Shown here: positions 10,074 through 64,000 of the stretch, in pieces
How positions within the stretch are numbered: position 1 is the first letter of the stretch
Layout of the letters: each line of letters starts with the position of its first letter
Assembly: GCF_024979255.1 (NCBI RefSeq)
Contig: NZ_JANLCN010000005.1
Coordinates: 124,001-188,000 of the forward strand
From: Herbiconiux moechotypicola
Lineage (GTDB): Bacteria; Actinomycetota; Actinomycetes; Actinomycetales; Microbacteriaceae
Reading direction: 5' to 3'
DNA: 64,000 nt
Notes under the pieces: model-generated
The model's database searches: none
Seen by the model: the letters and a program-made list of their open reading frames with translations, nothing else
What the model was told of the DNA's origin: nothing
Program-made: the position numbers and the translations under genes

Positions 10074-10230
10074 TGCTGCCAGTCTACCGCCTGTGCAGCC
10101 CTGCTCGGGCGGTGCGCATCCGGTGTTCGACCGTTGTCGAGATCGGATGCCTCCGTGCTCTATGCTGAGCCGGTCGAGGGGGTTCCGACGTAGGCGCCCC
10201 GACCCGTCGTTCCCTACCTGAGAGGCACCG

Positions 10231-12597
10231 ATGCCCCGCTCCGCTCCGCGCGCCCGCCGCGCCTCCGTCGCCGCGCTGGCCGGCGCGGCCCTCGTGCTGT
10301 CGAGCCTCGCGGCGGCGGCTCCCGCGTCTGCCGCCACGCCGTCGGGCTCGGTGCCCGCGACCGTGACCCCGGATGCGGGTGACGGCCGGGTCGTGATGCC
10401 GGAGTTCCAGCCGGAGTCGTACGTCGCCGCGGCAGCCGAGCTGCCGGCCGAACTCGTCACCGCGATCGCGAACGACCTCGGCGAGACCCCGGAGGAGTAT
10501 CTCGCGGGTGCCGATGCGGCCGCCGTGGCGGTCGAGGTGGTGGCCGGGCTCGAGGAGTCGGGCGTCGCGGTCGCGTCGTCGCGCCTTGAGGGCACCGAGC
10601 TCGTGGTGACCGTCGCGTCCGAGTCCGACGTGGCGGCGGTCGAGGCCGTCGACGCCACCGCCGAGGTGGGCGAGGCGCCGGGCCGCGAGGCCTACGCCGA
10701 CGTGGAGTTCGAGGCGCTGGCCGACCTGGTGGGCGGACAGGGCTACATCTTCGGCAACAGCTCGGAGCAGGGCCTGTGCTCGACGGCGTTCAACGGCCGT
10801 GACCGCGACTCGGGCGCCGCGCAGTTCGTGACCGCGGGCCACTGCGACTTCGACGGCCGCGACAGCCGCGTGTTCGAGGCCGTGCAGCCACGGCCGAACG
10901 TGGTCGACGCGGCGGGCGCTCTGCTCGGCACGGTGGTCTCGGGCAGTTTCCAGTTCGGCAACGAGTACGACGGCGGCCTCATCGCCACCAACTCGGGCTG
11001 GACTCCGAAGGGCACCGTGGGCACCTGGAACTCGGGCGCCAACAACGGACCGGTCACGGCGGGCACCCCCCAGGCGGTGCGCGACTACGGCGACACCATC
11101 ATCGGCCAGAGCGTGTGCAAGTCGGGGCGCACCACAGGGTGGAGCTGTGGCACCGTGAAGGACGTAGATCAGCTCGTGAACGTGAGCGGGCAGGAGGTCA
11201 ACGCCGACGTCGTGCGCAGCATGTGCACCAAGCAGGGCGACAGCGGCGGCGCCGTGGTGTCGGGCGGGTACGCGGTGGGTCTCATCTCCGGCGGGCAGGA
11301 GGGCTCGTGCGACTCGGGCAGCACCGCGATCACCGCGATCTTCCCCATGATCGGCGGCTCGGAGCCCGGCTTCCAGTACGGCTCGATCGTCACCCTCGAA
11401 GAGAACTGGGGCCTCTCGGTGAGTGCCCCGGCGCCGGTGGTGAACACGACGGTCGTCACCTCGGGCACCGTGTCGGGAACCCTCCCGAACGGCACCGGCA
11501 ACTACGCCGTGGCCATCAGCATCGATGGCGACGAGGTGCAGTTCGCCGATGTCGCGAGCGACCGCAGCTGGAAGCTGTCGCCCACGGGGCTCACCCCGGG
11601 CCTGCACAGCTACACCGCCTACTCCGTGTTCGGCTTCGGCGAGGCGATCTCGCGCTCCTCGACGGTCAGCGGTTCGCTGTTCGTCGGCACGGTGGACCGT
11701 ATCGCGGGGGCCGACCGGTACGAAGGGGCGGTGAAGATCTCGCAGGCGGGCTTCCCGGGCACGGCTCCGGTGGTCTACATCGCGACCGGGCAGAACTATC
11801 CGGATGCGCTGAGCGCGGGCCCCGCGGCCGTGGCCGAGGACGGGCCGCTGCTGCTGGTGACGCAGGGGTCGATCCCCACCTCGGTGTCAGACGAGATCAA
11901 GCGACTCGCTCCGGAGCGGATCGTGATCGTGGGCGGGCCGAACTCGGTGTCGTCGGGTGTGCAGACCGCTCTCGGCAAGCTCGTGAAGGGCGTGAAGGTG
12001 ACGCGTCTGTCGGGCGCCGACCGGTACGTGGCGAGTCAGAACGTGGTCGAGTCGGTCTTCGGCGGCCAGGTGATCGGGCACGCCTATGCGGCCACGGGCA
12101 CCAACTTCCCCGATGCGCTGTCGGCCGGGGGCGCCGCGGGTGCGGCGGGTGAACCCGTGGTGCTGGTGAACGGGCCGGCGTCGTCGGCCGACCATGCCAC
12201 GCTCGACGTGCTCCGCGCCATGAGCACCACCGACATCACGGTCGTGGGCGGGCTGAACTCGGTCTCGAGGGGTGTTGCCGACTCGCTGAAGGCGGTGCCC
12301 GCATCCGTCGACCGGGTCGCGGCGGCCGACCGCTATCTCACCTCGATCGCGCTGAACGACGACGCCTTCACCGAGAGCGACACCGTCTACCTCGCCACGG
12401 GCACCAACTTCCCCGACGCACTCGCCGGCGGTGTGCTCGCGGGCGCGAACGGTGCGCCGCTCTACGTGGTGCCCGGCGACTGCGTGCCTCAGGGCGTGCT
12501 CGACGGCATCCGCTCGCTCGGCGCGACCACGGTCGTGCTGCTCGGTGGCCAGAACTCGCTCGGTGCGGGGGTGGCGTCGCTGACCGCCTGCCGGTGA
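10231..12597 (+). CDS. Secreted S1 trypsin-like protease with three CWB2 cell-wall repeats
   Basis: A 788-residue exported protein. A twin-Arg-containing basic start and hydrophobic stretch (about 11-33) end in a signal peptidase site near ASA/A. Residues 45-165 resemble an alpha-lytic-protease-type propeptide. The S1 domain holds His204 (TAGHC), Asp247 (EYDGGLI) and Ser338 (GDSGG). A linker domain follows (about 400-480), then three cell-wall-binding repeat 2 modules (about 488-788), each with a DRxxGADRY-like start and ATGTNFPDALS motif. The CWB2 part should hold the protease on the wall. It likely cleaves extracellular protein. A GAGAGG site precedes the ATG, and a hairpin terminator follows. 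Confidence 0.9.
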   Translation: MPRSAPRARRASVAALAGAALVLSSLAAAAPASAATPSGSVPATVTPDAGDGRVVMPEFQPESYVAAAAELPAELVTAIANDLGETPEEYLAGADAAAVAVEVVAGLEESGVAVASSRLEGTELVVTVASESDVAAVEAVDATAEVGEAPGREAYADVEFEALADLVGGQGYIFGNSSEQGLCSTAFNGRDRDSGAAQFVTAGHCDFDGRDSRVFEAVQPRPNVVDAAGALLGTVVSGSFQFGNEYDGGLIATNSGWTPKGTVGTWNSGANNGPVTAGTPQAVRDYGDTIIGQSVCKSGRTTGWSCGTVKDVDQLVNVSGQEVNADVVRSMCTKQGDSGGAVVSGGYAVGLISGGQEGSCDSGSTAITAIFPMIGGSEPGFQYGSIVTLEENWGLSVSAPAPVVNTTVVTSGTVSGTLPNGTGNYAVAISIDGDEVQFADVASDRSWKLSPTGLTPGLHSYTAYSVFGFGEAISRSSTVSGSLFVGTVDRIAGADRYEGAVKISQAGFPGTAPVVYIATGQNYPDALSAGPAAVAEDGPLLLVTQGSIPTSVSDEIKRLAPERIVIVGGPNSVSSGVQTALGKLVKGVKVTRLSGADRYVASQNVVESVFGGQVIGHAYAATGTNFPDALSAGGAAGAAGEPVVLVNGPASSADHATLDVLRAMSTTDITVVGGLNSVSRGVADSLKAVPASVDRVAAADRYLTSIALNDDAFTESDTVYLATGTNFPDALAGGVLAGANGAPLYVVPGDCVPQGVLDGIRSLGATTVVLLGGQNSLGAGVASLTACR

Positions 12598-51442: not shown

Positions 51443-52192
51443 GTGACCCTCGACACCCAGGTAGCCGCCCCGGCCGTCTCCTTCCGGCAGGTGACGAAGG
51501 AGTTCGACGGCGTGCCCGCGCTGGCTCCGGTCGATCTCGACATCCGCCCGGGTGAGTTCGTGTCGATCATCGGCCCCTCCGGATGCGGCAAGTCGACGAT
51601 GCTCCGGCTCGGCTCCGATCTCGACGCCCCCTCCAGCGGCGACGTGGAGCGCTCGAGCGACAACGTCGGCTACGTGTTCCAAGACGCCACTCTCATGCCG
51701 TGGCGGACGGTGCGCCGCAACGTCGAGTTTCTCGGCGCGCTCGACGGCCTGCCGAAGGCCGAGTTGCGCGACCGGGTCGACCGGGCGCTCGCCACGGTCG
51801 GGCTCACCGATTACGCGCACCTGCTGCCGAAGCAGCTCTCGGGCGGCATGCGCATGCGCACGAGCCTCGCCCGCTCGCTCGTGCTCGAACCCGACCTCTT
51901 CTTCTTCGACGAACCGTTCGGGGCGCTCGACGAGATCACCCGCATGCGGCTGAACCAGGAGCTCATGTCGCTCTTCGCCGAGCGCCGCTTCGCCGCCCTG
52001 TTCATCACGCACTCGGTCGACGAGTCGGTGTTCCTGTCGACCCGGGTGCTCGTCATGTCGCCGCGCCCCGGTCACGTGGTGGCGGAGTTCGAGGTGCCGT
52101 TCGAGTACCCCCGCCCGGCGTCGCTGAAGTTCACGCCCGAGTTCGCCGAGCTCGAGCGCCAGGTCGCCACCGCTCTCGGGGAGGTGTCGTGA
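51443..52192 (+). CDS. Taurine/nitrate-type ABC importer ATPase
   Basis: The 249-residue ATPase has Walker A GPSGCGKST (44-52), a Q-loop VGYVFQDATLMPWRTVRRNVEF typical of SsuB/TauB/ThiZ proteins, the signature LSGGMRMRTSLARSL, Walker B LFFFDEPFGALDE and switch His in ITHSVDESVFLSTRV. GTG at 51443 has GGAG five bases upstream; a GTG at 51410 is also possible. Its stop overlaps the permease ATG by one base. It drives uptake of a small organic compound together with the next two genes. Confidence 0.9.
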   Translation: MTLDTQVAAPAVSFRQVTKEFDGVPALAPVDLDIRPGEFVSIIGPSGCGKSTMLRLGSDLDAPSSGDVERSSDNVGYVFQDATLMPWRTVRRNVEFLGALDGLPKAELRDRVDRALATVGLTDYAHLLPKQLSGGMRMRTSLARSLVLEPDLFFFDEPFGALDEITRMRLNQELMSLFAERRFAALFITHSVDESVFLSTRVLVMSPRPGHVVAEFEVPFEYPRPASLKFTPEFAELERQVATALGEVS

Positions 52193-53046
52193 TGCAGACC
52201 GTCGCCGAGAAGCGCGCTTCCGCCGGCGCGGCCGCCGCCGCGGCCCGCCGGGCGCGCAAGAAGACGCAGCCGTGGACCATCCGCATCCTGCCGCCCGTGC
52301 TGTTCTTCGTGGCGATCATCGGGGTCTGGTACCTCATCTCCTACGTGGTGCTCGACCCGGCGCGCCAGTTCCTGCTGCCGCCCCCGCAAGACGTCATCAT
52401 CGAGGGCTTCCTCGCCGAGGAGGCCAGGGCCGACATCTTCTCGGCGGCGTGGGAGTCGCTCAAGGTCGCCGTGATCGGTCTCGCGATCGCCTTCGTGCTC
52501 GGCTCGGTGCAGGCCGTGCTGATGAGCCAGGCGAAATGGATCGAGAACATGCTCTACCCCTACGCGGTCTTTCTGCAGACCATCCCCACGCTCGCGATCG
52601 TGCCGGTGATCGGCTTCTGGTTCGGCTACGAGCTGGCGCCCCGCGTGATCGTGTGCGTCATCATCGCGATCTTCCCGCTCATCATCAACCCGCTGAAGGG
52701 ACTGCTCGGAGCCGACCGGGGACTGCACGACCTCATGACGCTGAAGAAGGCGAGCCGGTGGAAGCGGCTCACGCAGCTGCAGATCCCCTCGGCCATGCCC
52801 GACGTGTTCACCGGCCTGCAGTCCGCCGCGGGGTTGGCCGTGGTCGGCGCGGTCGTGGGCGACTACTTCTTCGGCCGCGGCGCGATCGGTCTGGGGCTGC
52901 TCATCTCCCGCTACAGCGCCCGGCTGCAGGCGGCCGAGATGCTCGCGACGGTGCTGGTCGCGTGCGCGCTCGGCCTCGTCATGTTCTGGATCTTCGGCCT
53001 CCTCGGCCGCAGGATCGTCGGCCGCTGGTCGGATGCGTGGGCCTGA
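52192..53046 (+). CDS. Taurine/nitrate-type ABC importer permease
   Basis: The 284-residue permease has a basic cytoplasmic start, a span at about 31-52, PPPQDVIIEGF after it, and then the BPD_transp_1 core with SLKVAVIGLAIAFVLGSVQAVLM, AVFLQTIPTLAIVPVIGFWFG and the EAA loop LHDLMTLKKASRWKRLTQLQIPSAMPDVFTGLQSAAG. These are SsuC/TauC/ThiX features. The protein probably works as a dimer. A C-rich leader of 137 bases separates it from the binding-protein gene. Confidence 0.92.
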   Translation: MQTVAEKRASAGAAAAAARRARKKTQPWTIRILPPVLFFVAIIGVWYLISYVVLDPARQFLLPPPQDVIIEGFLAEEARADIFSAAWESLKVAVIGLAIAFVLGSVQAVLMSQAKWIENMLYPYAVFLQTIPTLAIVPVIGFWFGYELAPRVIVCVIIAIFPLIINPLKGLLGADRGLHDLMTLKKASRWKRLTQLQIPSAMPDVFTGLQSAAGLAVVGAVVGDYFFGRGAIGLGLLISRYSARLQAAEMLATVLVACALGLVMFWIFGLLGRRIVGRWSDAWA

Positions 53047-53183: not shown

Positions 53184-54344
53184 ATGGCCTCCGCCCCCCT
53201 CCGCACCCTCCGGGTCGCCGGCGCCCTCGGCGTCGCCGGCTCGATGGCCCTCGTGGCCGCCTGCTCCTCCGGTTCCTCCGGCGCCGAGACGAGCGCCACC
53301 CCAGCCGCCGAGGGCGTGCTCTCGGGCATCTGCCCCTCGACCGTCGTCATCCAGGCCGACTGGGAGCCCGAGTCGGAGCACGGCGGCATCTACGAGCTGC
53401 TCGGCGACGACTACACGGTCGACGTCGACAACAAGTCGGTGACCGGCTCGCTCGTGTCCGGCGGCGAGCCCACCGGCGTGAACGTCGAGATCCGCATCGG
53501 CGGCTCGTCGGTCGGCTACCAGCCGGTGCAGTCGCTGCTCTACCAGGACCCCGACATCCTCATGGGTTACGGTCGCGTCTCCGAGACCATCCCCTCGCTC
53601 GAGGAGACCCCCGTCGTGTCGGTGTTCTCGACCCTCGAGAAGAGCCCCTACGCCATCTACTGGGACCCGGCCACCTACCCTGACGCCGAGACCATCGCCG
53701 ACCTCAAGGCCGACGACGTGAAGATCTTCATGGGCTCGGAGGCCACCGTCTGGCAGGACTTCCTGGTGGGCACGGGCGTCATCGACGCCAGCCAGATCGA
53801 CCCCTCGGATGCGCCCAAGCCCGCGACCTTCGTGGCCGCCGGCGGTGCCGTGGCCGAGGCAGGCTTCGCCAGCGCCGAGCCCTACCTCTACGAGGTGGAG
53901 ACGCCGGAGTGGGGCAAGCCGGTGAAGCTGCAGCTCATCCACGACACCGGGTTCCCCGAGTACTTCCAGTCGATGATCGTGCGTGCCGACGACGTGACGG
54001 CGCAGTCGGAGTGCCTGAGCGCCCTGGTGCCGATCCTGCAGCAGGCCGAGGTCGACTACATCACCGACCCGACCGCCACGAACGAGCTCATGGTCGGCCT
54101 GGTCGACGAGTACGCCACCGGCTGGATCTACACCCTCGACAACGCGAACTGGTCGATCGAGGAGCAGAAGGAGCTCGGCCTCGTGGGTAACGGCGCCGAC
54201 GGCGCACTCGGCAGCTACGACGAAGAGCGCGTGCAGACGCTCATCGACCTCGTGGGTGAGTACACCGACTACGACACCTCCTCGCTCACCCCGGCCGACC
54301 TCGTGACGAACGAGTTCATCGACCCGAGCATCGCGCTGCCGTAA
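53184..54344 (+). CDS. NMT1/THI5-like ABC importer substrate-binding lipoprotein
   Basis: The 386-residue protein has a lipobox VAAC (Cys27). The mature part begins CPSTVVIQADWEPESEHGGIYELLG, which is the opening strand and ligand segment of NMT1/SsuA-like binding proteins that recognise thiamine precursors, pyrimidines, taurine or nitrate. WDPATYPDAETIADLKADDVKIFMGSEATVWQDFLVG is the hinge-like region. Related proteins in actinobacteria often belong to pyrimidine or nucleobase-like uptake systems; the ligand here is not determined. AAAGGA precedes the ATG. A strong terminator follows. Confidence 0.89.
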   Translation: MASAPLRTLRVAGALGVAGSMALVAACSSGSSGAETSATPAAEGVLSGICPSTVVIQADWEPESEHGGIYELLGDDYTVDVDNKSVTGSLVSGGEPTGVNVEIRIGGSSVGYQPVQSLLYQDPDILMGYGRVSETIPSLEETPVVSVFSTLEKSPYAIYWDPATYPDAETIADLKADDVKIFMGSEATVWQDFLVGTGVIDASQIDPSDAPKPATFVAAGGAVAEAGFASAEPYLYEVETPEWGKPVKLQLIHDTGFPEYFQSMIVRADDVTAQSECLSALVPILQQAEVDYITDPTATNELMVGLVDEYATGWIYTLDNANWSIEEQKELGLVGNGADGALGSYDEERVQTLIDLVGEYTDYDTSSLTPADLVTNEFIDPSIALP

Positions 54345-54624: not shown

Positions 54625-55473
54625 ATGCCCGACAGCTACCGGATCGCCGTGGCGCAGCCGCGCGCCCTCACCGAGCCCGACCACTCGGCCAACGTCGGCC
54701 GTGCCGTCGAGCTCGTGGCCGAGGCGGCCGCGGCCGGCGCGCGCCTCGTGCTCTTCCCCGAGCACAGCCCAGGGCCGTTCCGGGCCGGGCAGGATTACGA
54801 CGCGGCGGGCCCGATCGCCGAGGCGGCGGCCGCCCACGGCATCGCGGTGTGCTGGAGCCGCATGGAGCTGTGCGCCGACGACCGCTGGCGCCTCGTGGTG
54901 TACGTCACCGGCTCCGACGGCGCGACCGTGTTCCGCTACGAGCGCAGCCACCCCGCCACAGTGCCCGCGGGCGACACCGGGGGACACGTGGCCCCGGGTC
55001 CCGTGCTCGGCTCGTTCGAACTCGACGGGGTGCCGATGGGCATCGCGGTGTGCTCGGAGCTCTGGATCCCCGAGACCACCCGGGTGCTCGCGCTCCGCGG
55101 CGCCGAGGTCATCCTCTCGCCCGCGGGCGGCCACTTCACGGCGCTCACCTCGAACTGGCAGCTGCTCGCGAGGGCCCGTGCCATCGAGAACCACTGCTAC
55201 CTCGCCCTCACGAACAATCTCTACGGCGCCGAGCAGGGCGCGGCGATGATCACGGGACCCGAGCATGTGCTCGTGGAGGCCGGTCGGGCCGAGCTCGCGG
55301 TGGCGACGCTCGACCTCGCCCGGGCGCGCTGGCTCCGTGACCAGGACGACTCGCTGGCGGAGCCGAAGCCGTTCGACTCCATCCCGGGGCTGCTGCGCGC
55401 CCGGCGGCCCGAGCTCTACGCCGAGCTGGCGGCTCCGCGCGACGACCTGTTCGACTACGAGACGGGGCGGTGA
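54625..55473 (+). CDS. Nitrilase superfamily (CN-hydrolase) protein, catalytic Lys replaced
   Basis: The 282-residue protein has the CN-hydrolase fold: VLFPEHSPG with Glu46, and IAVCSELWIPE with Cys143, followed by LALRGAEVILSPAGG and RARAIENHCYLALTNN. In active members a Lys stands in YRKxH; here the segment reads FRYERSH, so Arg107 occupies that place. The enzyme should hydrolyse an amide or nitrile, but this change may alter or abolish the activity. ATG 54625 was chosen (GAGG upstream); a GTG at 54589 with AGGA is possible. Its stop overlaps the amidohydrolase start by four bases. First gene of the last operon. Confidence 0.85.
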   Translation: MPDSYRIAVAQPRALTEPDHSANVGRAVELVAEAAAAGARLVLFPEHSPGPFRAGQDYDAAGPIAEAAAAHGIAVCWSRMELCADDRWRLVVYVTGSDGATVFRYERSHPATVPAGDTGGHVAPGPVLGSFELDGVPMGIAVCSELWIPETTRVLALRGAEVILSPAGGHFTALTSNWQLLARARAIENHCYLALTNNLYGAEQGAAMITGPEHVLVEAGRAELAVATLDLARARWLRDQDDSLAEPKPFDSIPGLLRARRPELYAELAAPRDDLFDYETGR

Positions 55474-56921
55474 CCGCGATGACCGCAACCCTCATCCGCG
55501 GTGGGTGGGTGCTCACCGCCGCGACACCGCGCCCGGCCGCGTCCGGTGCCGGTACCGCCGACGGCGCCGCCACCCCCGCCGTCGTCCGCCACGGCGCGGT
55601 GCTGATCGCGGACGGTGTGGTGCAGGCGGTCGGCACGTTCGCCGAGCTCTCCGCCGCGCATCCCGAGGCCCGCGTGCACGGCGGGCCGAACGACATCGTC
55701 ACACCCGGCTTCGTCAACACCCACGGTCACTTCTCCGAGGGCCTCATCACCGGCATCGCCTCGCAGTACACGCTGTGGGAGTGGATCTCGGCGCTCATCA
55801 ACCCGGTCTCCCCCCACCTCGACCGCGAGATGGCCTACACGGGCACGCTGCTCGCGGGCATGCAGATGCTGCAGTCGGGCATCACCACCGCCAACGATAT
55901 GTTCGTCACCGACCCGGGCATCCGTGAGCCGATCACGCCGGGCGTGGTGGAGGCGCTCGACGAGCTCAACCTGCGCGGCGTGGTGTCGTTCGGTGCAGGT
56001 GACATGGGGTCGACCCGGGGCATCGACGCCGAGTTCGACGAGCACGAGGCGTTGCGCGAGGCCGCGGCGGCGAGCCGGCTGAGCACCTTCCGGGTGGGCA
56101 TCGGTGCGGTGGGCGGGCAGTCGGATGCGATGTTCGAGCGGTCGATCGAGCTGGCCGTGAACGGGGTGGGCGGCGGCGGGCACGGCACGGATGCGGGCCC
56201 CGCGGGCTTCGGGGTGCACATCCACCTGCAGGAGATCCGCGAGGAGGTCACCGCCACCATGCAGCGCAAGGGCCTCACCGCCATCGGCTACAGCGAGAAG
56301 GCGGGGCTCTTCGAGGCCCCCACGCTCGCTGCGCACTGCGTGTGGCTCGACCGGGCCGACCGCGACATCCTCGCCCGCAACCGCGTGGGCGTGGCGCACA
56401 ACCCGGTGTCGAACATGATCCTCGCCTCGGGTGTGGCCCCCGTCGCCGAGCTGCGGCAGCTCGGGGTCGACGTGGGCATCGGCGTCGACGGGCCGGCCTC
56501 GAACGACTCGCAGGACATGATGCAGGCCGTGAAGTCGGCCGCGCTGCTCGCCCGCGTGCATCACCAGCAGGCCACCGCGATGAGCGCGGAGGAGGCGTTC
56601 GAGCTGGCCACCATCGGCGGCGCCCGGGCGCTCCGGATGCAGGACACCATCGGGTCGCTCGAGCCCGGCAAGGCCGCCGACCTCATCGTGTTCGACGGCG
56701 ACGCGCCCGCTCTGGCCAACGTGCACGACCCGTTCCAGGCGATCGTGTTCGCCGCGGGCGCCCGCGACATCGCGAGCGTGTGGGTCGACGGCCGGCCGAG
56801 CGTGATGGCCGGCGAGGTCGTCACCGTCGACGCCCGCGACACCGTCGAGCGCTCCCGCCCCCTGGCCCGCCGGCTCGTGCGCGCCGCCGGGCTCGGGCAC
56901 CTCTCGGAGCTGGCGCGATGA
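55470..56921 (+). CDS. Amidohydrolase 1 (AtzA/TrzN/SAH-deaminase subgroup)
   Basis: The 483-residue metalloenzyme should deaminate or dechlorinate a nitrogen heterocycle. Metal ligands are visible: NTHGHFSEG (HxH), the His in GVHIHLQE, the His in LAAHCVWLD and the Asp in GVDGPASNDSQDM. These are typical of the guanine/8-oxoguanine/SAH deaminase and triazine hydrolase group. ALRMQDTIGSLEPGKAADLIVFD is the usual C-terminal beta part. GTG at 55470 overlaps the nitrilase stop; ATG at 55479 is an alternative. The stop overlaps a mini-ORF by four bases. A second amidohydrolase lies at 60926. Confidence 0.9.
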   Translation: MTAMTATLIRGGWVLTAATPRPAASGAGTADGAATPAVVRHGAVLIADGVVQAVGTFAELSAAHPEARVHGGPNDIVTPGFVNTHGHFSEGLITGIASQYTLWEWISALINPVSPHLDREMAYTGTLLAGMQMLQSGITTANDMFVTDPGIREPITPGVVEALDELNLRGVVSFGAGDMGSTRGIDAEFDEHEALREAAAASRLSTFRVGIGAVGGQSDAMFERSIELAVNGVGGGGHGTDAGPAGFGVHIHLQEIREEVTATMQRKGLTAIGYSEKAGLFEAPTLAAHCVWLDRADRDILARNRVGVAHNPVSNMILASGVAPVAELRQLGVDVGIGVDGPASNDSQDMMQAVKSAALLARVHHQQATAMSAEEAFELATIGGARALRMQDTIGSLEPGKAADLIVFDGDAPALANVHDPFQAIVFAAGARDIASVWVDGRPSVMAGEVVTVDARDTVERSRPLARRLVRAAGLGHLSELAR

Positions 56922-57037
56922 GCCGGTCCCGCGCATCCGTCACCGCCCGTGCCGCACTCGGCGCGTCGCGCATCCCGTCCGCCGCGCATGCGTCGGCCAC
57001 CGCCCCGTCCACCACCGCCACCGAAAGCAGCCGATGA
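56918..57037 (+). CDS. Mini-ORF of 39 codons coupling two genes
   Basis: ATG at 56918 overlaps the amidohydrolase stop (ATGA), and the stop at 57035-57037 overlaps the ATG of the ArcS-like gene (ATGA). The product is basic then Ala/Ser/Thr-rich (MSRSRASVTARAALG) without a recognisable domain. Its role may be only to carry ribosomes from one gene to the next. It could also be a remnant of a longer gene. Confidence 0.4.
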   Translation: MSRSRASVTARAALGASRIPSAAHASATAPSTTATESSR

Positions 57038-58167
57038 GCACCACAGCACCCGCGCCCACCTCGGCGCCGACCCCCGACCCCGCCTTGACCGGGCATCCGC
57101 TCTCGCGTGAGGCGCGGCTGGTGTCGTCGCAGCGCAAGATCCGCCTGCCGTTCCGGCTCGACGACAGCATGCGGTTCTACTCGCCGCAGGAGAACGTCGA
57201 CTCGCTCGCGCATCCGCGGGTCGCCGCCTGGCTCGACTTCATCGAGAACACCTGGGCTCCGGATGCGGCGGCCGGCCCTGCGGGCGCCCCGCGCATCGCC
57301 CTGCTGGTGCCGTGCTGCAAGATGAAGCCCTACCTCGTGAGCCGTGAGCACCGGGCCATCAACCAGGCGCTGCTCGATGCGGGCTGGGTGTCGACCGGCA
57401 CCGTGCCGGTGCCCGAGGGGCTCGCCGAGGCCGTCGACCGCGAGGCCGACCCTGCGCTGTTCGACGCGTCGCCGCTCGTGCGCGACGGGGTGGTGCTCGA
57501 CCGCTTCGTGGTGTCGGAGCCGCTCGGCATGGTGCCCTACGAGAACGTGTACCACTGGAACGGCGAGCAGAGCCCGGCCACCTCGTACGACGACCCGGGG
57601 CTGTTCGAGGCGCGCGGCACCTCGGTGTCGCCCGAGCATCCGCTGTTCACCGCCACGCCGGTGGCGGGCGGCAAGTACAGCTGGGGGCCGGGCGAGCGGC
57701 AGGCCTACGTGGCGATGCACAACCGGATGGCCGAGGTGATCGCGGCGTCGCTGGTGCGGCTCGCGCCGTACTACGCGTCGACCGCGGCGTGGCTGAGCCC
57801 GGGGCTGACGCACCGCTCGTTCCTCGCGGGCACCGCGCGGCGGGCCGAGGACGGGCTGGCCTACTCGCGGCGCGGGGTCGACGGGGTGGAGCTGCCGCTC
57901 GTGGGCGTGGGCGACCTGGTGCCGGCGGAGGTGGGGGAGTCGATCACCATGATGCCGACGCAGACGCAGATCGCCGCCGCGAAGGAGGCGCTGACGGCCC
58001 GGCTCGCTGCCACCGGCCGCGCGGCCACCCCCGGCGCCATGCGCGCCGTGTTCGCGCGCGGCGACGGACACGACACCCCGCTCGGCCTGCCCGAGGCACT
58101 CGTGCACCTCACCGCCTGGCTCGACGAGGCCGCGGCCGCGGCCGGTGCTTCGGGAGGGGAATCGTGA
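57034..58167 (+). CDS. ArcS-core (DUF5591) protein in a bacterial operon
   Basis: The 377-residue protein contains LLVPCCKMKPYLVSREH at 91-106, an exact match to the archaeosine synthase core PC-x3-KPY-x2-S-x2-H (Cys94, Lys98, Ser103, His106). A second ArcS-type element is SEPLGMVPYENVYHW at 161-175, followed by SPATSYDDPGLF, like the SPLGxVPxE...YPA..YD part of DUF5591. In archaea the Lys attacks the nitrile of preQ0 in tRNA. No PUA or tRNA-transglycosylase domain is seen here, so tRNA is an unlikely substrate. It is coupled at both ends to mini-ORFs. I infer action on a free 7-deazapurine or a similar nitrile or amine. Confidence 0.75.
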   Translation: MSTTAPAPTSAPTPDPALTGHPLSREARLVSSQRKIRLPFRLDDSMRFYSPQENVDSLAHPRVAAWLDFIENTWAPDAAAGPAGAPRIALLVPCCKMKPYLVSREHRAINQALLDAGWVSTGTVPVPEGLAEAVDREADPALFDASPLVRDGVVLDRFVVSEPLGMVPYENVYHWNGEQSPATSYDDPGLFEARGTSVSPEHPLFTATPVAGGKYSWGPGERQAYVAMHNRMAEVIAASLVRLAPYYASTAAWLSPGLTHRSFLAGTARRAEDGLAYSRRGVDGVELPLVGVGDLVPAEVGESITMMPTQTQIAAAKEALTARLAATGRAATPGAMRAVFARGDGHDTPLGLPEALVHLTAWLDEAAAAAGASGGES

Positions 58168-58223
58168 GCACCCCGAGCGGCACCGGGACCGGCAGCCGCG
58201 CCCGCGCGGGGGTTCCGGCATGA
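58164..58223 (+). CDS. Mini-ORF of 19 codons coupling two genes
   Basis: GTG at 58164 overlaps the stop of the ArcS-like gene (GTGA) and its own stop overlaps the aldehyde dehydrogenase ATG (ATGA). The product is Ser/Gly/Thr/Arg-rich and has no domain. A role in termination-reinitiation is inferred from position only. Confidence 0.35.
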   Translation: MSTPSGTGTGSRARAGVPA

Positions 58224-59668
58224 GCGGCGCGATGCAGGAGGTGCGGGCGGTCGCGACGGGCGAGGTGCTCGGGGCGGTGCCGCTGACCGGTGCCGACGAA
58301 GTCGCGGCGGTGGTCGCGCGCGCCCGGGAGGCATTGCGGGGCTGGCGGCGGGCCGCGCCGCACGAGCGGGCCGACCTGCTGCGGGCCGGATCGGCCGCGC
58401 TCGGCACCCCCGAGACCGTGGAGCGCCTCGCCGCGCTGCACGCGCGCGAGTCGGGCAAGGTCATCGCGCAGGCGCGACACGAGATCCGCGGCGCAGCGCG
58501 CCTGCTCGAGGCCAACGCCGAGCTCGGCCGCATGTGGACCGGCACCATCGCCCCCACCGGCGCCCTGCCCGGCGGAGAGAACGACCTCACCCTCGTCGAA
58601 CAGGTGCCGCTCGGGGTGGTCGTGACGGTCATCCCGTTCAACTTCCCGGTCGAGCTCATGCTCGAGAAGGCAGCCGCCGCGCTCGCCACCGGCAACGTCG
58701 TGATCGTGAAGCTGCCGCCGCAGAACCCGCTCGCCACGCTCGAGACCGTGCGCATCCTGCATGCGGCAGGTGTGCCGGAGGGCGTGTTGCAGGCCGTCGC
58801 GGGCGACACCGCGATGGCTGCCGCGCTCTGCTCCGTGCCGGGGGTCGACGCCGTGTCGCTCACCGGGTCGGTGGGAGCCGGTGTCGCGGTGGCCACGAGC
58901 ACCGCCGCACTCCTGCGCCCGCTGCACCTCGAACTCGGCGGCAACGGCGCGGCGATCGTGCTGCCCGACGCCGACCTCGACCTCGTGGTGTCGGAGACGC
59001 TCCGCGGTCGCCTGCTCATGAACGGCCAGGCCTGCGCCGGCACCAAACGCGTGCTCGCCCACCGCTCCGTCGCCGCCGAACTCACCGCGCGGCTCGAAGC
59101 CGCCCTCCGCCCCATCGCAGCGGTCGATCCGGTGCTCGAGGACGCGCGCCTGGGCCCGCTCATCGACGCCGGCGCAGCCGCCCGGGTGCACACGCAGGTG
59201 GAGCGCGCCGTCTCCGAGGGCGCCACGCGGGTGCTGGGGGAGTCCCGCGAGACACCCGCCGGCCCGGATGCGCGACCCGGCTCCCCGTGGTTCGTGCCGA
59301 CCCTGCTCGCCGGCGTGCCCGCATCCGCCGCCGTCGCGATCGACGACGAGATCTTCGGCCCGGTGTTCACCGTGGTGCCGGTCGACGACGCCGACCAGGC
59401 GATCGACGTGGCCAACGCCTCGAGCCTCCGGCTCACGGCGGCGGTGTTCTCGGCCGACCTGCCGCAGGCGATGGGCATCGCGCAGGAGCTCGACTTCGGC
59501 GGCGTCGTCGTGAACGGCACCAACAACTACCGCCCGCCCGTGGTGCCCTTCGGCGGGGTGGCGCTCGCCGGAGCCGGCCGCGAGGGCATCGGGTACACCA
59601 TCGAAGAGCTCACCCGCTCCCGTTTCATCGCCCTCAAGGGCCTCCGCACCAGAAGGGCACAGCCATGA
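58220..59668 (+). CDS. Aldehyde dehydrogenase family protein
   Basis: The 482-residue enzyme oxidises an aldehyde to an acid with NAD(P). Motifs are VVVTVIPFNFPVELMLEKAAAALATGNVVIVKLPPQNPLA (cofactor loop), LTGSVGAGV, the catalytic Glu in LHLELGGNGAA and the catalytic Cys in NGQACAGTKRV. EIFGPVFTVVPV is also typical. The usual KP of the cofactor motif reads KLP, a small deviation. It lies between a mini-ORF and the aminotransferase, joined by ATGA overlaps; the pair suggests transamination of an amine followed by aldehyde oxidation. Confidence 0.92.
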   Translation: MSGAMQEVRAVATGEVLGAVPLTGADEVAAVVARAREALRGWRRAAPHERADLLRAGSAALGTPETVERLAALHARESGKVIAQARHEIRGAARLLEANAELGRMWTGTIAPTGALPGGENDLTLVEQVPLGVVVTVIPFNFPVELMLEKAAAALATGNVVIVKLPPQNPLATLETVRILHAAGVPEGVLQAVAGDTAMAAALCSVPGVDAVSLTGSVGAGVAVATSTAALLRPLHLELGGNGAAIVLPDADLDLVVSETLRGRLLMNGQACAGTKRVLAHRSVAAELTARLEAALRPIAAVDPVLEDARLGPLIDAGAAARVHTQVERAVSEGATRVLGESRETPAGPDARPGSPWFVPTLLAGVPASAAVAIDDEIFGPVFTVVPVDDADQAIDVANASSLRLTAAVFSADLPQAMGIAQELDFGGVVVNGTNNYRPPVVPFGGVALAGAGREGIGYTIEELTRSRFIALKGLRTRRAQP

Positions 59669-60903
59669 CCGACCTGCTCGACGAGACCGAGCTCGACAGC
59701 TACCGCGACCGCTTCGCCGCGCACCTCTCGCAGACCGTGCCCGGCCGCAAGGAGTTCGTGGTGGGCTCGGCGAGCGGATGCACCCTCACGGATGCGGGCG
59801 GCCGCGACTACCTCGACATGACCTCCGGCATCGCCGTGGCCAACGTGGGCCACTCGCATCCGGAGGTCGTGGCCGCCATCCAGCGCCAGGCCGCCCGCTA
59901 CACCCACGTGAACGTGTACGGCCGCTTCGTGGTGCCCGAGCAGGTGGAGATCGTGGAGCGCATCACGGGGGTGACCGGGCCCGGGATGGACGTGGCGTAT
60001 CTCACCTCGTCCGGCGCCGAGTCGACCGAGTGCGCGCTCAAGCTCGCCCGCAAATACACCGGCCGCCCCAAGTTCGTGGCGATGGAGCGGGCGTACCACG
60101 GCCGCACCCTGGGCGCCCTCTCGGTGAGCTGGCGCGAGGAGTGGCGCAAGCCCTTCGAGCCGCTGCTGCCCGAGGTGGTGTTCGTGCCCTTCGACGACCT
60201 CGAGGCCGCGGCCGCCGCCATCGACGAGCGCACCGCTGCCGTGATCGTGGAGCCCATCCAGGGCGAGGGCGGCATCCGGGTGCCCTCCGACGACTACCTG
60301 CCCGGCCTCCGCCGCCTCACCCGCGAGAAGGGCGCGCTGCTCATCGTCGACGAGGTGCAGGGCGGCATGGGCCGCTCGGGCCGCTGGTTCGCGCACCAGA
60401 ACTGGGACGTCGAGCCAGACATCATCACCATGGCGAAGGCCGTCGGCGGCGGGCTGCCGCTCGGCGCCGTCATCTCGACCCCCGAGATCTTCGCCACCTT
60501 CATCGACCCGCCGCTCTCGCACCTCACCACCATGGGCGGCAACCCGCTCTCCTGCGCCGCGGGCATCGCCGCCTTCGACGTGATGGTGCGCGAGAACCTG
60601 GTCGAGGCGTCGGCCACCAAGGGCGAATACCTGCGGGGACGGCTCGGCGAGCTGCGGGCCGAGTTCCCGGAGGCGATGGTCGACATCCGCGGCAAGGGCC
60701 TGTGGTGCGCGTTCGAGGTGGCGGGCGACGCCAACGTGGTGGCACGGGCCATGCAGGAGCGGGGTGTGCTCGTGGGCTCGGTGCTCAACTCCAGCGGTAC
60801 CGTGCGCGTCACACCGCCGCTCGTGGTGACCGAGGCCGAGATCGACCGCTTCGTCGAGGTGCTCCGCACCGTGCTCGCCGACGGCATCGGAGTCGCCTCG
60901 TGA
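59665..60903 (+). CDS. Class III aminotransferase (PLP)
   Basis: The 412-residue enzyme moves an amino group from an amine or omega-amino acid to a keto acid. It has DMTSGIAVANVGHSHPEVV, TSSGAESTECALKLARKYTGRPK (PLP phosphate binding), IVDEVQGGMGRSG with the Asp that contacts the PLP nitrogen, and the Schiff-base Lys in IITMAKAVGGGLPLG. MGGNPLSCAAGIAAFDV and VDIRGKGLWCAFEV are family-like. It is similar in layout to GabT at 2896 but shorter. The aldehyde formed would feed the adjacent aldehyde dehydrogenase. Its start and stop both take part in 4-base overlaps. Confidence 0.93.
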   Translation: MTDLLDETELDSYRDRFAAHLSQTVPGRKEFVVGSASGCTLTDAGGRDYLDMTSGIAVANVGHSHPEVVAAIQRQAARYTHVNVYGRFVVPEQVEIVERITGVTGPGMDVAYLTSSGAESTECALKLARKYTGRPKFVAMERAYHGRTLGALSVSWREEWRKPFEPLLPEVVFVPFDDLEAAAAAIDERTAAVIVEPIQGEGGIRVPSDDYLPGLRRLTREKGALLIVDEVQGGMGRSGRWFAHQNWDVEPDIITMAKAVGGGLPLGAVISTPEIFATFIDPPLSHLTTMGGNPLSCAAGIAAFDVMVRENLVEASATKGEYLRGRLGELRAEFPEAMVDIRGKGLWCAFEVAGDANVVARAMQERGVLVGSVLNSSGTVRVTPPLVVTEAEIDRFVEVLRTVLADGIGVAS

Positions 60904-60929
60904 CCGGGCTGACGGGGGTGGCGGTATGA
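60900..60929 (+). CDS. Mini-ORF of 9 codons coupling two genes
   Basis: GTG at 60900 overlaps the aminotransferase stop and TGA at 60927-60929 overlaps the ATG of amidohydrolase 2. It encodes only VTGLTGVAV. It is listed because it completes the chain of 4-base overlaps in this operon; it is unlikely to have a function as a peptide. Confidence 0.25.
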   Translation: MTGLTGVAV

Positions 60930-62410
60930 CGGATGCGCGGGACATCGCGCGCCGGGAGGTTCTGGTGCGCGGGGCGTGGGTGATCACCCAGGGGCCGCTC
61001 GGCACGATCGCCGACGCGGCGGTGCACCTGCGCGGCGGGGCGATCGTCGAGGTGGGCGACTGGACCGCGCTGCGGGCCGCGCATCCGGAGCTCGACGTGG
61101 TGGGCGACGGCACCGGAATCGTCGCGCCCGGGTTCGTCAACACCCACACGCACCTCTCCGAGGCGCTCGCCACCGGCATGGGCTCCGAGCTCACGCTGTT
61201 CGAGTGGGGCGAGCGCATTGTGGGCCCGCTCGGGGCGGTGCTCACCCAGGAGGACGCCGCCGAGGGCACCGCCCTCCGCGCCGTGGAGCTGCTGCTCTCG
61301 GGCGTCACGACCGTGAACGACATGTTCGTGCACTGCAACCCGGGCTCGCACGCGAGCGTGGGCGTGGTCGACGGCATCGAGCGATCCGGGTTGCGCGCCG
61401 TGGTGTCGTTCGGGGCGGAGGACGTGGCCGATCCGGCGCTGCCGCCGTGGGCCGGGGTCGACGAGGTGCTGGCCGAGCAGTTCGCGCTCGAGCGGGCGGC
61501 GGCCGAGGCATCCGCCCGCCAGGTGCAGGCCGCGGTCGAGGCCGCGGCGACGGGGGCTCCGGATGCGGGTGCGCCGGATGCGGGTGCGCCGGATGCGGCG
61601 GGCACCGGGCTGGTGTCGTTCCGCTACGGCGTCGGCACCCTGCTCGGGCAGAGCGACGCGCTGCTCGCGGCCGGGGTCGCCGCCACCCGCGAGCACGGCT
61701 GGGCGGTGCACACGCACCTCGCCGAGACACGCGAAGAGCTCGTGGTGGCCAGCCAGCGCTGGCGGGAGCGCACCATCGACCACGCCGACACGATCGGATT
61801 GCTCGACGGACCGCTCATCGCCGGCCATGCGGTGTGGGCGACGGATCGCGACGTGCAGCTGCTCGCCGAGCGCGGCACCGCGGTCGCGCACAACCCCGTG
61901 GCGAACATGATCCTCGGCTCGGGCGTCTGCCCCGTGCCCGTGCTGCGGCGGGCCGGCGTGCTCGTGGGCGTGGCCACCGACGGCGCCGCCTCGAACGACT
62001 CGCAGGACATGTTGCAGGCCGTGAAGATGGCCGCCCTGCTGCAGAAGGTGCACCACATCGACCCGTCGGTGATCGACGCCTCCACCGTGCTGCGCATGGC
62101 CACGATCGACGGTGCCCGCGCCCTCGGGCTCGACCACCTGGTGGGCAGCCTCGAGCCCGGCAAGCGCGCCGACGTGGTGCTCTACCAGGACACCGTCGAC
62201 GTGTCGGTGCTGCACGACCCCGAGGGGCAGCTCGTGTACGGGGCGTCTCCGCGCTCGGTGGCGGCGGTGTTCGTCGACGGGCGGATGCTCGTGAGCGACC
62301 ACCGGTGCGTGTCGGTGGACGAGGCGGCGCAGATCGAGCGGTGCCGGCCGCTGGTGCGGCGCATCGCGCGGGCGTCGGCGCTCGCCGCGGAGGGGTGGTC
62401 GCGGGCGTGA
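60926..62410 (+). CDS. Amidohydrolase 2 (AtzA/TrzN/SAH-deaminase subgroup)
   Basis: The 494-residue enzyme is a paralogue of amidohydrolase 1. Metal ligands are NTHTHLSEA (HxH), the His of AVHTHLAETREE, the His of IAGHAVWATD and the Asp of ATDGAASNDSQDM. It should hydrolyse a C-N or C-X bond in a heterocycle. The insert GAPDAGAPDAGAPDA at about 211-225 comes from a 15-base DNA tandem repeat and is probably a surface loop. It starts by ATGA overlap with the 9-codon mini-ORF and ends by GTGA overlap with the FAD oxidoreductase. Confidence 0.9.
   Translation: MTDARDIARREVLVRGAWVITQGPLGTIADAAVHLRGGAIVEVGDWTALRAAHPELDVVGDGTGIVAPGFVNTHTHLSEALATGMGSELTLFEWGERIVGPLGAVLTQEDAAEGTALRAVELLLSGVTTVNDMFVHCNPGSHASVGVVDGIERSGLRAVVSFGAEDVADPALPPWAGVDEVLAEQFALERAAAEASARQVQAAVEAAATGAPDAGAPDAGAPDAAGTGLVSFRYGVGTLLGQSDALLAAGVAATREHGWAVHTHLAETREELVVASQRWRERTIDHADTIGLLDGPLIAGHAVWATDRDVQLLAERGTAVAHNPVANMILGSGVCPVPVLRRAGVLVGVATDGAASNDSQDMLQAVKMAALLQKVHHIDPSVIDASTVLRMATIDGARALGLDHLVGSLEPGKRADVVLYQDTVDVSVLHDPEGQLVYGASPRSVAAVFVDGRMLVSDHRCVSVDEAAQIERCRPLVRRIARASALAAEGWSRA
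61561..61599 (+). repeat. 15-base tandem repeat inside amidohydrolase 2
   Basis: GGATGCGGGTGCGCC is repeated 2.6 times and encodes PDAGA units. The unit contains the over-represented word GGATGCG. Confidence 0.75.
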
Positions 62411-64000
62411 GCGGGGCGGGTGCAGGTGCGGACGCGCGAACCGGACCGCAGCCGCGGGCGGCCGAGTCGGTCGCGGTGATCGGCGCCGGCCACAACGGTC
62501 TCGTGTGCGCGCTGCTGCTCGCGCGCGCCGGCTTCGCCGTGACGCTCCTCGAGGCGGCAGACGAGGTGGGTGGTTGCGTGTGGACCGACACCGACTCGCG
62601 CGGCCTCCGCCGCGAACGCGGCGCGATCGACCACGGCGGGGTGCACGCCCTGGCGGAGGATCTCGGCCTCGCCGAGCACGGCCTCCGCTTTCGCGAGCGC
62701 GACACCCTGGCGGTGTTCCGCGTGGCGGGCGAGGACCGCCGCTTCGCCGTCTCCGCCGAGGAGACCGCGTCGGCGCTCGGCTCCGACGGACCCGCCTACC
62801 TCGACCTCGCCGAGCGCGCGGCGAGCCTGTTCGGCATGATCGACCGCTTCCCCGAGCCGCCCACCCTCACACAGCTCGCGACGGTGCTCGCGCGCCTGCG
62901 CGGGGGCGACGAGCTCTTCCGTTCGCTGCTCGCGCCCGCCCGCGCCGTGATCGAGCAGGCGGTCACCGATCCGCGCACGCGCGCGGCGCTCGAGCTCTAC
63001 GCCTCGCACAGCCAGATCCCGTCGTGGGCGCCGGGCTCCGGAGCGATGGCGATGATGCTGCCCTCCGGGCACGGGCACGCGGCCGTGCGTCCCGAAGGCG
63101 GTTCGGCGGCGCTGACCGGGTCGTTGCGCCGCGCCTTCGAGGCGGCGGGCGGCACGGTGCGCACGGGCGCCGCCGTGCGTGAGGTGCGGATGGCGGGCGC
63201 GGGCGGCGGGACCGGCGCGCATCCGATCGTCGTGCTCGACTCGGGCGAGAGCCTCGAGGCCGGCCGGGTGGTGTCGACCATCGGGGTGCCGCGCACCGCG
63301 GCGCTGCTCGAACGGGCGGGGTCCGCCCCCGCCGCGCTGCGGCTCGACGCCGCCAGCCAGCGATCGGGGCAGTTCAACGTCTCTGAGCTCACCGTGTCGA
63401 TCACGCGAGCGTCGTCGGCGCCGTTGCTCGACGACGACGCGATCCACTTCGTGCAGAGCGGTCTCGGCGACCTCCACCGCGGGTTCGGCGACCTCATCGC
63501 GGGCCGTCTGCCCGCGTCGCCGTGGGCGATGGTGGCCGACGTTCCGCAAGACGAGGGGGTCACCGGTTCGGCGGTCTGGCTGTCGTCGGTGGTGCCGATC
63601 GAGCGGGCCGACGGGCCGTGGACGAGCGAGCGCGAGCAGCAGGCGGGCGCCGCTGTGATCGAGGCGGTGTCGCGCCAGCTCGATCGCGATGTCGCGCCCG
63701 AGGGCTCCGAGGTGGTGGTGACCGGGCCGCTCGGCTGGGCCGAGCGCATCGGCGGCATCGGCAACCCGAACCACGTCGACCTCACGCTCGACCAGCTCTT
63801 CGGCTGGCGTCCGGCGAGCGGGCGCGGCGCCCGCACCGAGGCGCCGTGGCTCTATCTTGCGGGGGCGGGCGTGCATCCGGGCGGCGGACTGTCGGGGGCG
63901 TCGGGCCGGGCTGCGGCCGAGGCCGTGATCGCGGATGCGCGGGGCGGCGCGCGCGGGAACGGTGCGGGCGGGGTGCGGGGCGTTCTCGCCGGCGCGGCCG
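62407..64000 (+). CDS. FAD-dependent oxidoreductase, phytoene desaturase-like (3' end outside window)
   Basis: The frame is open from GTG at 62407 to the window edge (531 codons). It has the dinucleotide-binding motif SVAVIGAGHNGLVCALLLARAGFAVTLLEAADEVGGCV near residue 20, IPSWAPGSGAMAMMLPSGHGHAAVRPEGGSAALTGSLRRAFEAAGGTV in the middle and the FAD-closing APWLYLAGAGVHPGGGLSGASGRAAAEAVI near the end, all typical of the phytoene desaturase/amine oxidase-like group. Such actinobacterial proteins often oxidise small amines or act in unknown pathways rather than in carotenoid synthesis. The start overlaps the amidohydrolase 2 stop (GTGA). Only a short C-terminal piece is missing. Confidence 0.88.
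   Translation, partial: MSGAGAGADARTGPQPRAAESVAVIGAGHNGLVCALLLARAGFAVTLLEAADEVGGCVWTDTDSRGLRRERGAIDHGGVHALAEDLGLAEHGLRFRERDTLAVFRVAGEDRRFAVSAEETASALGSDGPAYLDLAERAASLFGMIDRFPEPPTLTQLATVLARLRGGDELFRSLLAPARAVIEQAVTDPRTRAALELYASHSQIPSWAPGSGAMAMMLPSGHGHAAVRPEGGSAALTGSLRRAFEAAGGTVRTGAAVREVRMAGAGGGTGAHPIVVLDSGESLEAGRVVSTIGVPRTAALLERAGSAPAALRLDAASQRSGQFNVSELTVSITRASSAPLLDDDAIHFVQSGLGDLHRGFGDLIAGRLPASPWAMVADVPQDEGVTGSAVWLSSVVPIERADGPWTSEREQQAGAAVIEAVSRQLDRDVAPEGSEVVVTGPLGWAERIGGIGNPNHVDLTLDQLFGWRPASGRGARTEAPWLYLAGAGVHPGGGLSGASGRAAAEAVIADARGGARGNGAGGVRGVLAGAA

Follow-up and report, generated by a model that had tools for sequence, protein, structure and literature searches.

What does the core of archaeosine synthase (ArcS) do in a bacterium that encodes it among catabolic enzymes? 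The question is raised by a 64,000-nucleotide stretch of Herbiconiux moechotypicola DNA (contig NZ_JANLCN010000005.1, positions 124,001 to 188,000, forward strand), referred to here as the window, which encodes a stand-alone protein of the DUF5591 (ArcS-core) type named D5591. An earlier note, drawn from the letters of this DNA, had placed the protein in a pathway that breaks down or salvages a 7-deazapurine or another heterocycle with a nitrile or aminomethyl group. The findings described below suggest that D5591 acts on a small molecule and not on tRNA, as part of a pathway that degrades a fused, guanine-like heterocycle. The best candidate for this compound is a 7-deazaguanine, as base or as nucleoside (queuine, preQ1, preQ0 and kin), and we give this reading a probability of about 45%.

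The DUF5591 protein and its family

The open reading frame (ORF) and its conserved blocks are located as follows.

57034..58167, + strand: D5591, stand-alone DUF5591 (ArcS-core) protein, 377 residues (ORF call, profiles, alignment)
57310..57351, + strand: codons of PC-x3-KPY-x2-S-x2-H, residues 93-106 (family alignment)
57514..57543, + strand: codons of the SEPLGMVPYE block, residues 161-170 (family alignment)
57586..57609, + strand: codons of YDDPGLFE, residues 185-192 (family alignment)

Residues 93-106 are an exact fit to PC-x3-KPY-x2-S-x2-H, which we take to be the ArcS signature and which the archaeal DUF5591 domains fetched here also carry. In an alignment of 55 family sequences (54 of the 74 loci found in a scan plus the window protein, the other 20 being truncated or close copies), the strict motif was retained in 54, the exception being L076 with Ala in place of the first Pro, and Cys94, Lys98, Pro99, Tyr100, Ser103 and His106 were invariant. 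The second block, SEPLGMVPYE at residues 161-170, follows a pattern, SEP-L/M/F-x-x-VP-Y/F, that is kept in 55/55. Both blocks had been pointed out in the earlier note, and their conservation bears it out. YDDPGLFE is likewise invariant in the 55 bacterial sequences, and only its Tyr185 is common to all six rows of a mixed alignment. None of the remaining 1148 ORFs called in these loci carries the signature.

Searches with the window protein alone were weak. PF17884 gave 22.6 bits (E=1e-4, residues 87-115), below the 26-bit Pfam cut-off, and the two NCBIfam ArcS equivalog models gave 17.5 and 17.6 bits for cut-offs of 600 and 440; one other family member reached at best 37.9 bits with these models, also under the cut-offs. 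Taken alone, the Pfam and NCBIfam scores of the window protein are suggestive only. In the same way, phmmer against the PDB returned 2Q07 at E=0.33, from a single sequence. The homology was settled by alignment-based searches and a second structural look: PF17884 was matched by 55/55 members at E<=0.01 (best 2e-9), profile-profile comparison of the family with PF17884 gave E=2.6e-13, and the fold of AF0587 (PDB 2Q07) was recovered for D5591. A chance motif match was rejected on the PF17884 matches, the motif conservation and the profile-profile result. D5591 has neither a PUA nor a tRNA-guanine transglycosylase (TGT) domain, as the note had said, because PF17884 is its sole Pfam match at E<=1. 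That D5591 is homologous to the ArcS core is practically certain; as judged from these comparisons, it represents a bacterial subfamily of this core, whose DUF5591 fold appears distantly like that of uracil-DNA glycosylases.

A recurrent, probably catabolic neighbourhood

The scan found D5591 at 74 loci: in the Actinomycetota, the Chloroflexota and the Alphaproteobacteria, and once each in an elusimicrobium and a Lachnospiraceae bin. Neighbours were studied in a set of 76 loci, made of 72 of these (L032 and L074 were dropped as duplicates of L007 and L008) and of L002, L006, L007 and L008, whose ORFs were called and clustered into families. It comprises 28 Actinomycetota, 6 Chloroflexota, 40 Alphaproteobacteria and 2 others; these labels were set by hand from record titles, and the 'bacterium' bins L011, L013, L015 and L024 were counted as Actinomycetota, in agreement with the tree. 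The gene caller missed the D5591 gene in three loci (L006, L064, L079), where it was located by other searches.

Within this set, the deaminase-type amidohydrolase AmH1 was found in 59 loci, the NMT1-fold protein NMT1L in 35, and HpaB, an amidase and an FAD monooxygenase-like protein in 33 each. They are joined by DUF1989 (25), aldehyde dehydrogenase and the enamidase-type amidohydrolase AmH2 (23 each), a PuuE type (22), an isochorismatase (20), a hydantoinase, a class II aldolase and BMP importer parts (19 each), two aminotransferase families (18 and 12), DUF1185 and an HDAC-type protein (18 each) and a CN hydrolase (14). This supports the catabolic-looking operon described in the note, whose genes recur across phyla. 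As controls, 16 windows of 20 kb (15 from carriers, one from the host), set at round coordinates and not randomly drawn, were compared with those 56 loci that span 15 kb or more. AmH1 was present in 2 controls and 47 loci, aldehyde dehydrogenase in 1 and 17, NMT1 binding proteins in 1 and 13, and an amino-acid permease in 1 and 8; ATPases of ATP-binding cassette (ABC) transporters, with 6 of 16 controls versus 23 of 56 loci, are little enriched. The other neighbour families listed were found in 0/16 control windows.

The hydantoinase and PuuE types never occur in one locus of the 76, and the same is true for isochorismatase and amidase. The PuuE type is confined to Alphaproteobacteria; of the loci with the hydantoinase type, 15 are from Actinomycetota, 2 from Chloroflexota and 2 from Alphaproteobacteria. 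In the simplest inference, one cyclic amide or ureide would be opened and trimmed by enzymes that are unrelated between lineages. We regard a conserved heterocycle-catabolic operon as very probable.

In the window, the ORFs of the cluster overlap or stand close together:

51443..52192, + strand: ABC importer ATPase (ABC_tran 1.2e-27; start picked by script)
52192..53046, + strand: ABC importer permease (BPD_transp_1 2.7e-21)
53184..54344, + strand: importer substrate-binding protein, family SBPw, in 9/76 D5591 loci including the window's
54625..55473, + strand: CN hydrolase, nitrilase superfamily (Pfam E 9.5e-29; family in 14/76 loci)
55470..56921, + strand: deaminase-type amidohydrolase AmH1 (Amidohydro_1; family in 59/76 loci)
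58220..59668, + strand: aldehyde dehydrogenase (Pfam; family in 23/76 loci)
59665..60903, + strand: class III aminotransferase AT3a (Pfam; 18/76 loci)
60926..62410, + strand: second AmH1 amidohydrolase (Amidohydro_1, clustering)
62407..64000, + strand, continuing past the window to 64101: FAD oxidoreductase, Amino_oxidase/CrtO-like (profile)

The CN hydrolase is 55% identical to one adjoining the D5591 gene in L008, and the aldehyde dehydrogenase 61% identical to that of the L007 cluster. The enzymes that the note had listed (CN hydrolase, two Amidohydro_1 proteins, class III aminotransferase, aldehyde dehydrogenase, FAD amine-oxidoreductase-like protein) were all recognised. Its NMT1-type importer is not confirmed: at E<=0.5 the binding protein matches DUF1806 alone in Pfam (0.025), not NMT1, and the ATPase and permease are ordinary ABC parts. 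The NMT1-fold protein of the cluster, NMT1L, is encoded just beyond the window, its nearest entry being a 4,5-dihydroxyphthalate decarboxylase (4.6e-53 to 9JP7). Of note, the protein at 53184-54344 has no Pfam family at E<=0.02, although its own family recurs.

The gene set of the host goes on for about 17 kb beyond the window, to about 81300 in window numbering. The FAD oxidoreductase is followed, in the same overlapping chain, by a methyltransferase, a GntR-type regulator and NMT1L. Past an interruption come an HDAC-type hydrolase on the other strand, HpaB, a regulator, an amidase, a PuuE-like protein, a second amidase, MmgE/PrpD and an FAD monooxygenase-like protein. Their identities (HDAC-type 56% to L081, HpaB 68% to a Microbacterium metagenome-assembled genome (MAG), amidase 42% to L048, PuuE-like 32% to L051, FAD monooxygenase-like 48% to L058) assign the genes after the interruption, as far as similarity tells, to the core set of the alphaproteobacterial loci. 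The host genome thus brings the actinobacterial and the proteobacterial sets together, which argues that both serve one pathway. The interruption includes, by eye and among other genes, a ROK-like regulator and a xylose-isomerase-like gene (L002:17089-18998, which is 67089-68998 in window numbering).

A candidate route of 7-deazaguanine breakdown

To our knowledge, no protein with this core other than archaeal ArcS has been studied. A 7-deazaguanine is proposed as substrate because of the ArcS setting and of the company that D5591 keeps in divergent loci, guanine-deaminase-family proteins and PnrA-like importers; we put this tentative choice at rather less than even odds. Such companions were identified by profile and clustering in L079, the most divergent locus, whose D5591 gene is accompanied by genes for a regulator, a BMP-type importer and a guanine-deaminase-family protein and by a MATE-like gene. 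Amidohydrolase fragments were seen by eye in the divergent loci L065 and L080. The Lachnospiraceae locus encodes a member of the guanine-deaminase family at 286.6 bits, under the cut-off of 375.4.

In a study of Thermococcus kodakarensis ArcS (TkArcS), the enzyme moves free L-lysine slowly to the preQ0 nucleoside and well to its 5'-phosphate (PMC11298593), which makes a tRNA-free reaction by the core chemically reasonable. The same study amends the earlier note, where 'the Lys' in archaeal ArcS was held to react with the preQ0 nitrile in tRNA: in the archaeal enzyme studied, it is free L-lysine that goes to preQ0 (PMC11298593). ArcS is named an amidinotransferase in an older paper (PMC5485725).

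In the route proposed, the substrate would be imported and D5591 would probably act early, through Cys94, Lys98 and His106, on the base or its 7-substituent. AmH1, whose window copy has as nearest solved entries proteins named MTA/SAH deaminase, amidohydrolase and 8-oxoguanine deaminase, would remove the 2-amino group. A hydantoinase-, PuuE- or AtzD-type enzyme would open the pyrimidine ring; a cyanuric-acid-hydrolase-type ring-opening amidohydrolase scores above cut-off near D5591 in L041, and L045 holds a fragment of one. The ureido part would be taken off by an isochorismatase-type or amidase-type hydrolase, and a carboxylate could be lost through the dihydroxyphthalate-decarboxylase-like NMT1L. 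The leftover pyrrole would be hydroxylated by HpaB and the FAD enzyme, or its lactam opened by the enamidase-like AmH2 (3.8e-108 to 2VUN), and the side chain would be burnt by the aminotransferase or FAD enzyme and the aldehyde dehydrogenase. Deamination, ring opening, hydrolysis, decarboxylation and oxidation are all read from enzyme families, next to a homology, a motif conservation and a linkage that were directly observed. Most of the assignments to the hydantoinase, PuuE, RutB/BiuH, amidase and HpaB types fall below equivalog cut-offs and thus imply no exact substrate. Overall, and with the same reserve as for the substrate, 7-deazaguanine catabolism would occur sporadically in five phyla (two of them via single metagenome bins), a stand-alone ArcS-core enzyme starting the attack and alternative cyclic-amide hydrolases opening the pyrimidine ring.

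A pair of enamidase-like and DUF1185 ('amino acid synthesis') genes was also observed with no D5591 annotated nearby (L089:13326-15110, L090:11351-13146), surrounded by ring-hydroxylating dioxygenase and molybdopterin dehydrogenase genes in Thermomicrobium or by an FAD monooxygenase in Agrobacterium. The pair is perhaps a general module of N-heteroaromatic breakdown.

Weighing the alternatives

Several points speak against the breakdown of a 7-deazaguanine by way of D5591. Foldseek by itself returned no structure at E<=0.001. Of the 76 loci, 17 lack AmH1, some of these being short contigs. Clades differ in gene content, and phylogeny confounds the finding that ring-opening enzymes exclude one another. 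Among the neighbours, part of which were profiled, neither a hydrolase nor a phosphorylase of nucleosides was recognised, and no riboswitch of any kind was found at gathering score in 15 of the 76 loci, where only RNase P, signal recognition particle RNA and tRNA were matched. TGT is present in 38 of 45 carrier genomes searched (45 of the 74 loci). In the TkArcS study, ArcS is inactive on the free preQ0 base (PMC11298593). In archaeal ArcS the base may be bound by the TGT-like domain, in which case DUF5591 would not by itself have to recognise a 7-deazaguanine. The course of the pathway rests on enzyme families, linkage and homology, and every step is putative. Finally, enamidase and DUF1185 also occur in clusters without D5591, so the pair is no pointer to 7-deazaguanine.

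The recurrence of that pair beside dioxygenase or monooxygenase genes favours a different substrate for the same operon, as do the deaminase, ring-opening, ureido-hydrolase, HpaB and enamidase families, which suit several heterocycles. The compound would be another fused 2-aminopyrimidinone or N-heterocycle (a pterin, a flavin fragment, an alkaloid), D5591 having kept the ArcS fold and the cysteine-lysine site and lost the link to 7-deazaguanine. This is possible, though we consider it less probable than 7-deazaguanine: the one studied setting of the domain, ArcS, is 7-deazaguanine chemistry, and the other DUF5591 proteins met here are archaeal ones annotated as tRNA-guanine transglycosylases (TGT and DUF5591 were profiled together in one), AF0587 and a viral protein. 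Two other proposals concern the step of D5591 only and are compatible with the remaining readings. D5591 could be an ArcS-like transferase of an amine (lysine or polyamine) to a nitrile, the amidine being cleared by HDAC-type and CN hydrolases. The identity of its motif with that of ArcS-type domains and the occurrence of the two hydrolase families (HDAC/acetylpolyamine-amidohydrolase in 18/76 loci and the host, CN hydrolase in 14/76) would fit, the HDAC-type protein of L022 being nearest to acetylpolyamine amidohydrolases (1.2e-84 to 9GKZ); yet neither family is present in more than a minority of the 76 loci as cut, and no RaSEA-like radical SAM partner was recognised among the profiled neighbour families (no search aimed at RaSEA was made). 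We consider this role unlikely. Less likely again is a nucleoside N-glycosidase of uracil-DNA-glycosylase fold that would release the imported base for the deaminase.

That D5591 supplies a 7-deazaguanine to TGT, for salvage into tRNA, would agree with the TGT genes of most carriers searched. However, neither TGT (PF01702) nor QueC (PF06508) was found in the host genome (4.28 Mb, 99.89% complete), while the controls were positive in 14/14 and 12/14 genomes; the host would then have no preQ0-tRNA of its own for lysine transfer. TGT was also not found in 7 of the 45 other carriers, several of which are MAGs, D5591 has no PUA or TGT domain, and ring-opening enzymes adjoin it. Salvage into tRNA is excluded for the host, as far as the assembly goes, and highly improbable for the family. 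From the pathway outlined in the earlier note, the ArcS-core homology, the recurrent catabolic-looking operon and the enzyme families suiting pyrimidine-heterocycle breakdown can be kept; its 7-deazapurine substrate and the nitrile or aminomethyl group as site of action are tentative, and its salvage branch is disfavoured for the host. Ordinary purine catabolism was set aside in turn: no uricase or allantoicase was recognised among the profiled families (no search aimed at uricase was made), and HpaB, enamidase and decarboxylase would be idle.

Distribution of the family

In the tree, the window protein groups with a Microbacterium MAG protein (65% identity) inside the actinobacterial set, and the alphaproteobacterial set is separate save for one Ilumatobacter row. 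The gene is sporadic. It was not found in 15 other genomes of the host's genus, and among 40 relatives of the host only the host itself has it; in the phylum it was found in 4 of 396 genomes, including the host and one weak match (9e-4). A PF17884 search of a like sample gave 4/396 as well, three from the D5591 family and one weak. Among relatives of the Lachnospiraceae genome it was present in 1 of 61, the query genome. Searched with the window protein only, genome contigs yielded no confirmed relative. This patchy occurrence suggests possible horizontal transfer. Misbinning could explain the elusimicrobial and the Lachnospiraceae member, each known from a single metagenome bin.

Among plasmid records, one, from Rhizobium, carries D5591. 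Its HDAC-type gene (L006:20247-21370) is by eye in two pieces in different frames and unannotated, either a broken gene or a sequencing error. A phage collection gave no relative at E<=0.01 with the L007 protein as query. The only relatives on viral contigs, L092 (43.7 kb) and L093 (245 kb), are a different DUF5591 protein: L092:4338-6581 encodes 747 residues with DUF5591 at 40.6 bits, PC-x3-KPF and SEPLGIVPY, by its profile a virus-encoded ArcS-core protein, and L093 has a like match. In parallel, haloarchaeal plasmids of Natrinema (L094:1474-3477) and Haladaptatus (L095:6001-8022, 8736-10700) encode 'tRNA-guanine transglycosylase' proteins with TGT-like and DUF5591 parts in one chain (profiled for Natrinema only), the Natrinema gene adjoining a large helicase. 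They may represent a system that modifies DNA with 7-deazaguanines and has an ArcS core of its own.

Significance and comparison with known systems

A bacterial family with an intact motif, no tRNA-binding parts and recurrent catabolic neighbours suggests that the ArcS core can do small-molecule chemistry, and its compact proteins could help to work out the ArcS reaction. Should the substrate indeed be a 7-deazaguanine, the pathway would be a fate for queuine in the environment (judging by its title, one locus comes from a deer-colon bin) and a sink for a eukaryotic micronutrient made by bacteria. The word DUF5591 was absent from the literature searched, outside which most subscription papers fall, and no paper on bacterial 7-deazaguanine breakdown was among the matches listed, judged by title and start of abstract. 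In the part seen of a 2024 paper on queuosine-precursor transporters, 'possible degradation' stands as dashed arrows in a figure legend and salvage is otherwise treated (PMC11130926).

D5591 shares with TkArcS the DUF5591 core and its signature. It differs by the lack of the TGT-like and PUA domains, by the YDDPGLFE block and by its bacterial catabolic operon, and lysine transfer by D5591 is only putative. AF0587 (PDB 2Q07), 20% identical, is archaeal and of 'function unknown' by its title. Queuosine salvage, with queuosine hydrolase, queuine lyase and TGT, also handles 7-deazaguanines from outside the cell (PMC11130926, PMC11570991), but its endpoint is tRNA, whereas the window host has no detected TGT. 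Finally, purine, pyrimidine and s-triazine catabolism use the same enzyme families (guanine deaminase, PuuE, hydantoinase, RutB/BiuH, AtzD), which vary by locus here; to these the D5591 loci, with uricase and allantoicase unrecognised among the families profiled, add HpaB, an enamidase, a decarboxylase-like protein and D5591 itself.

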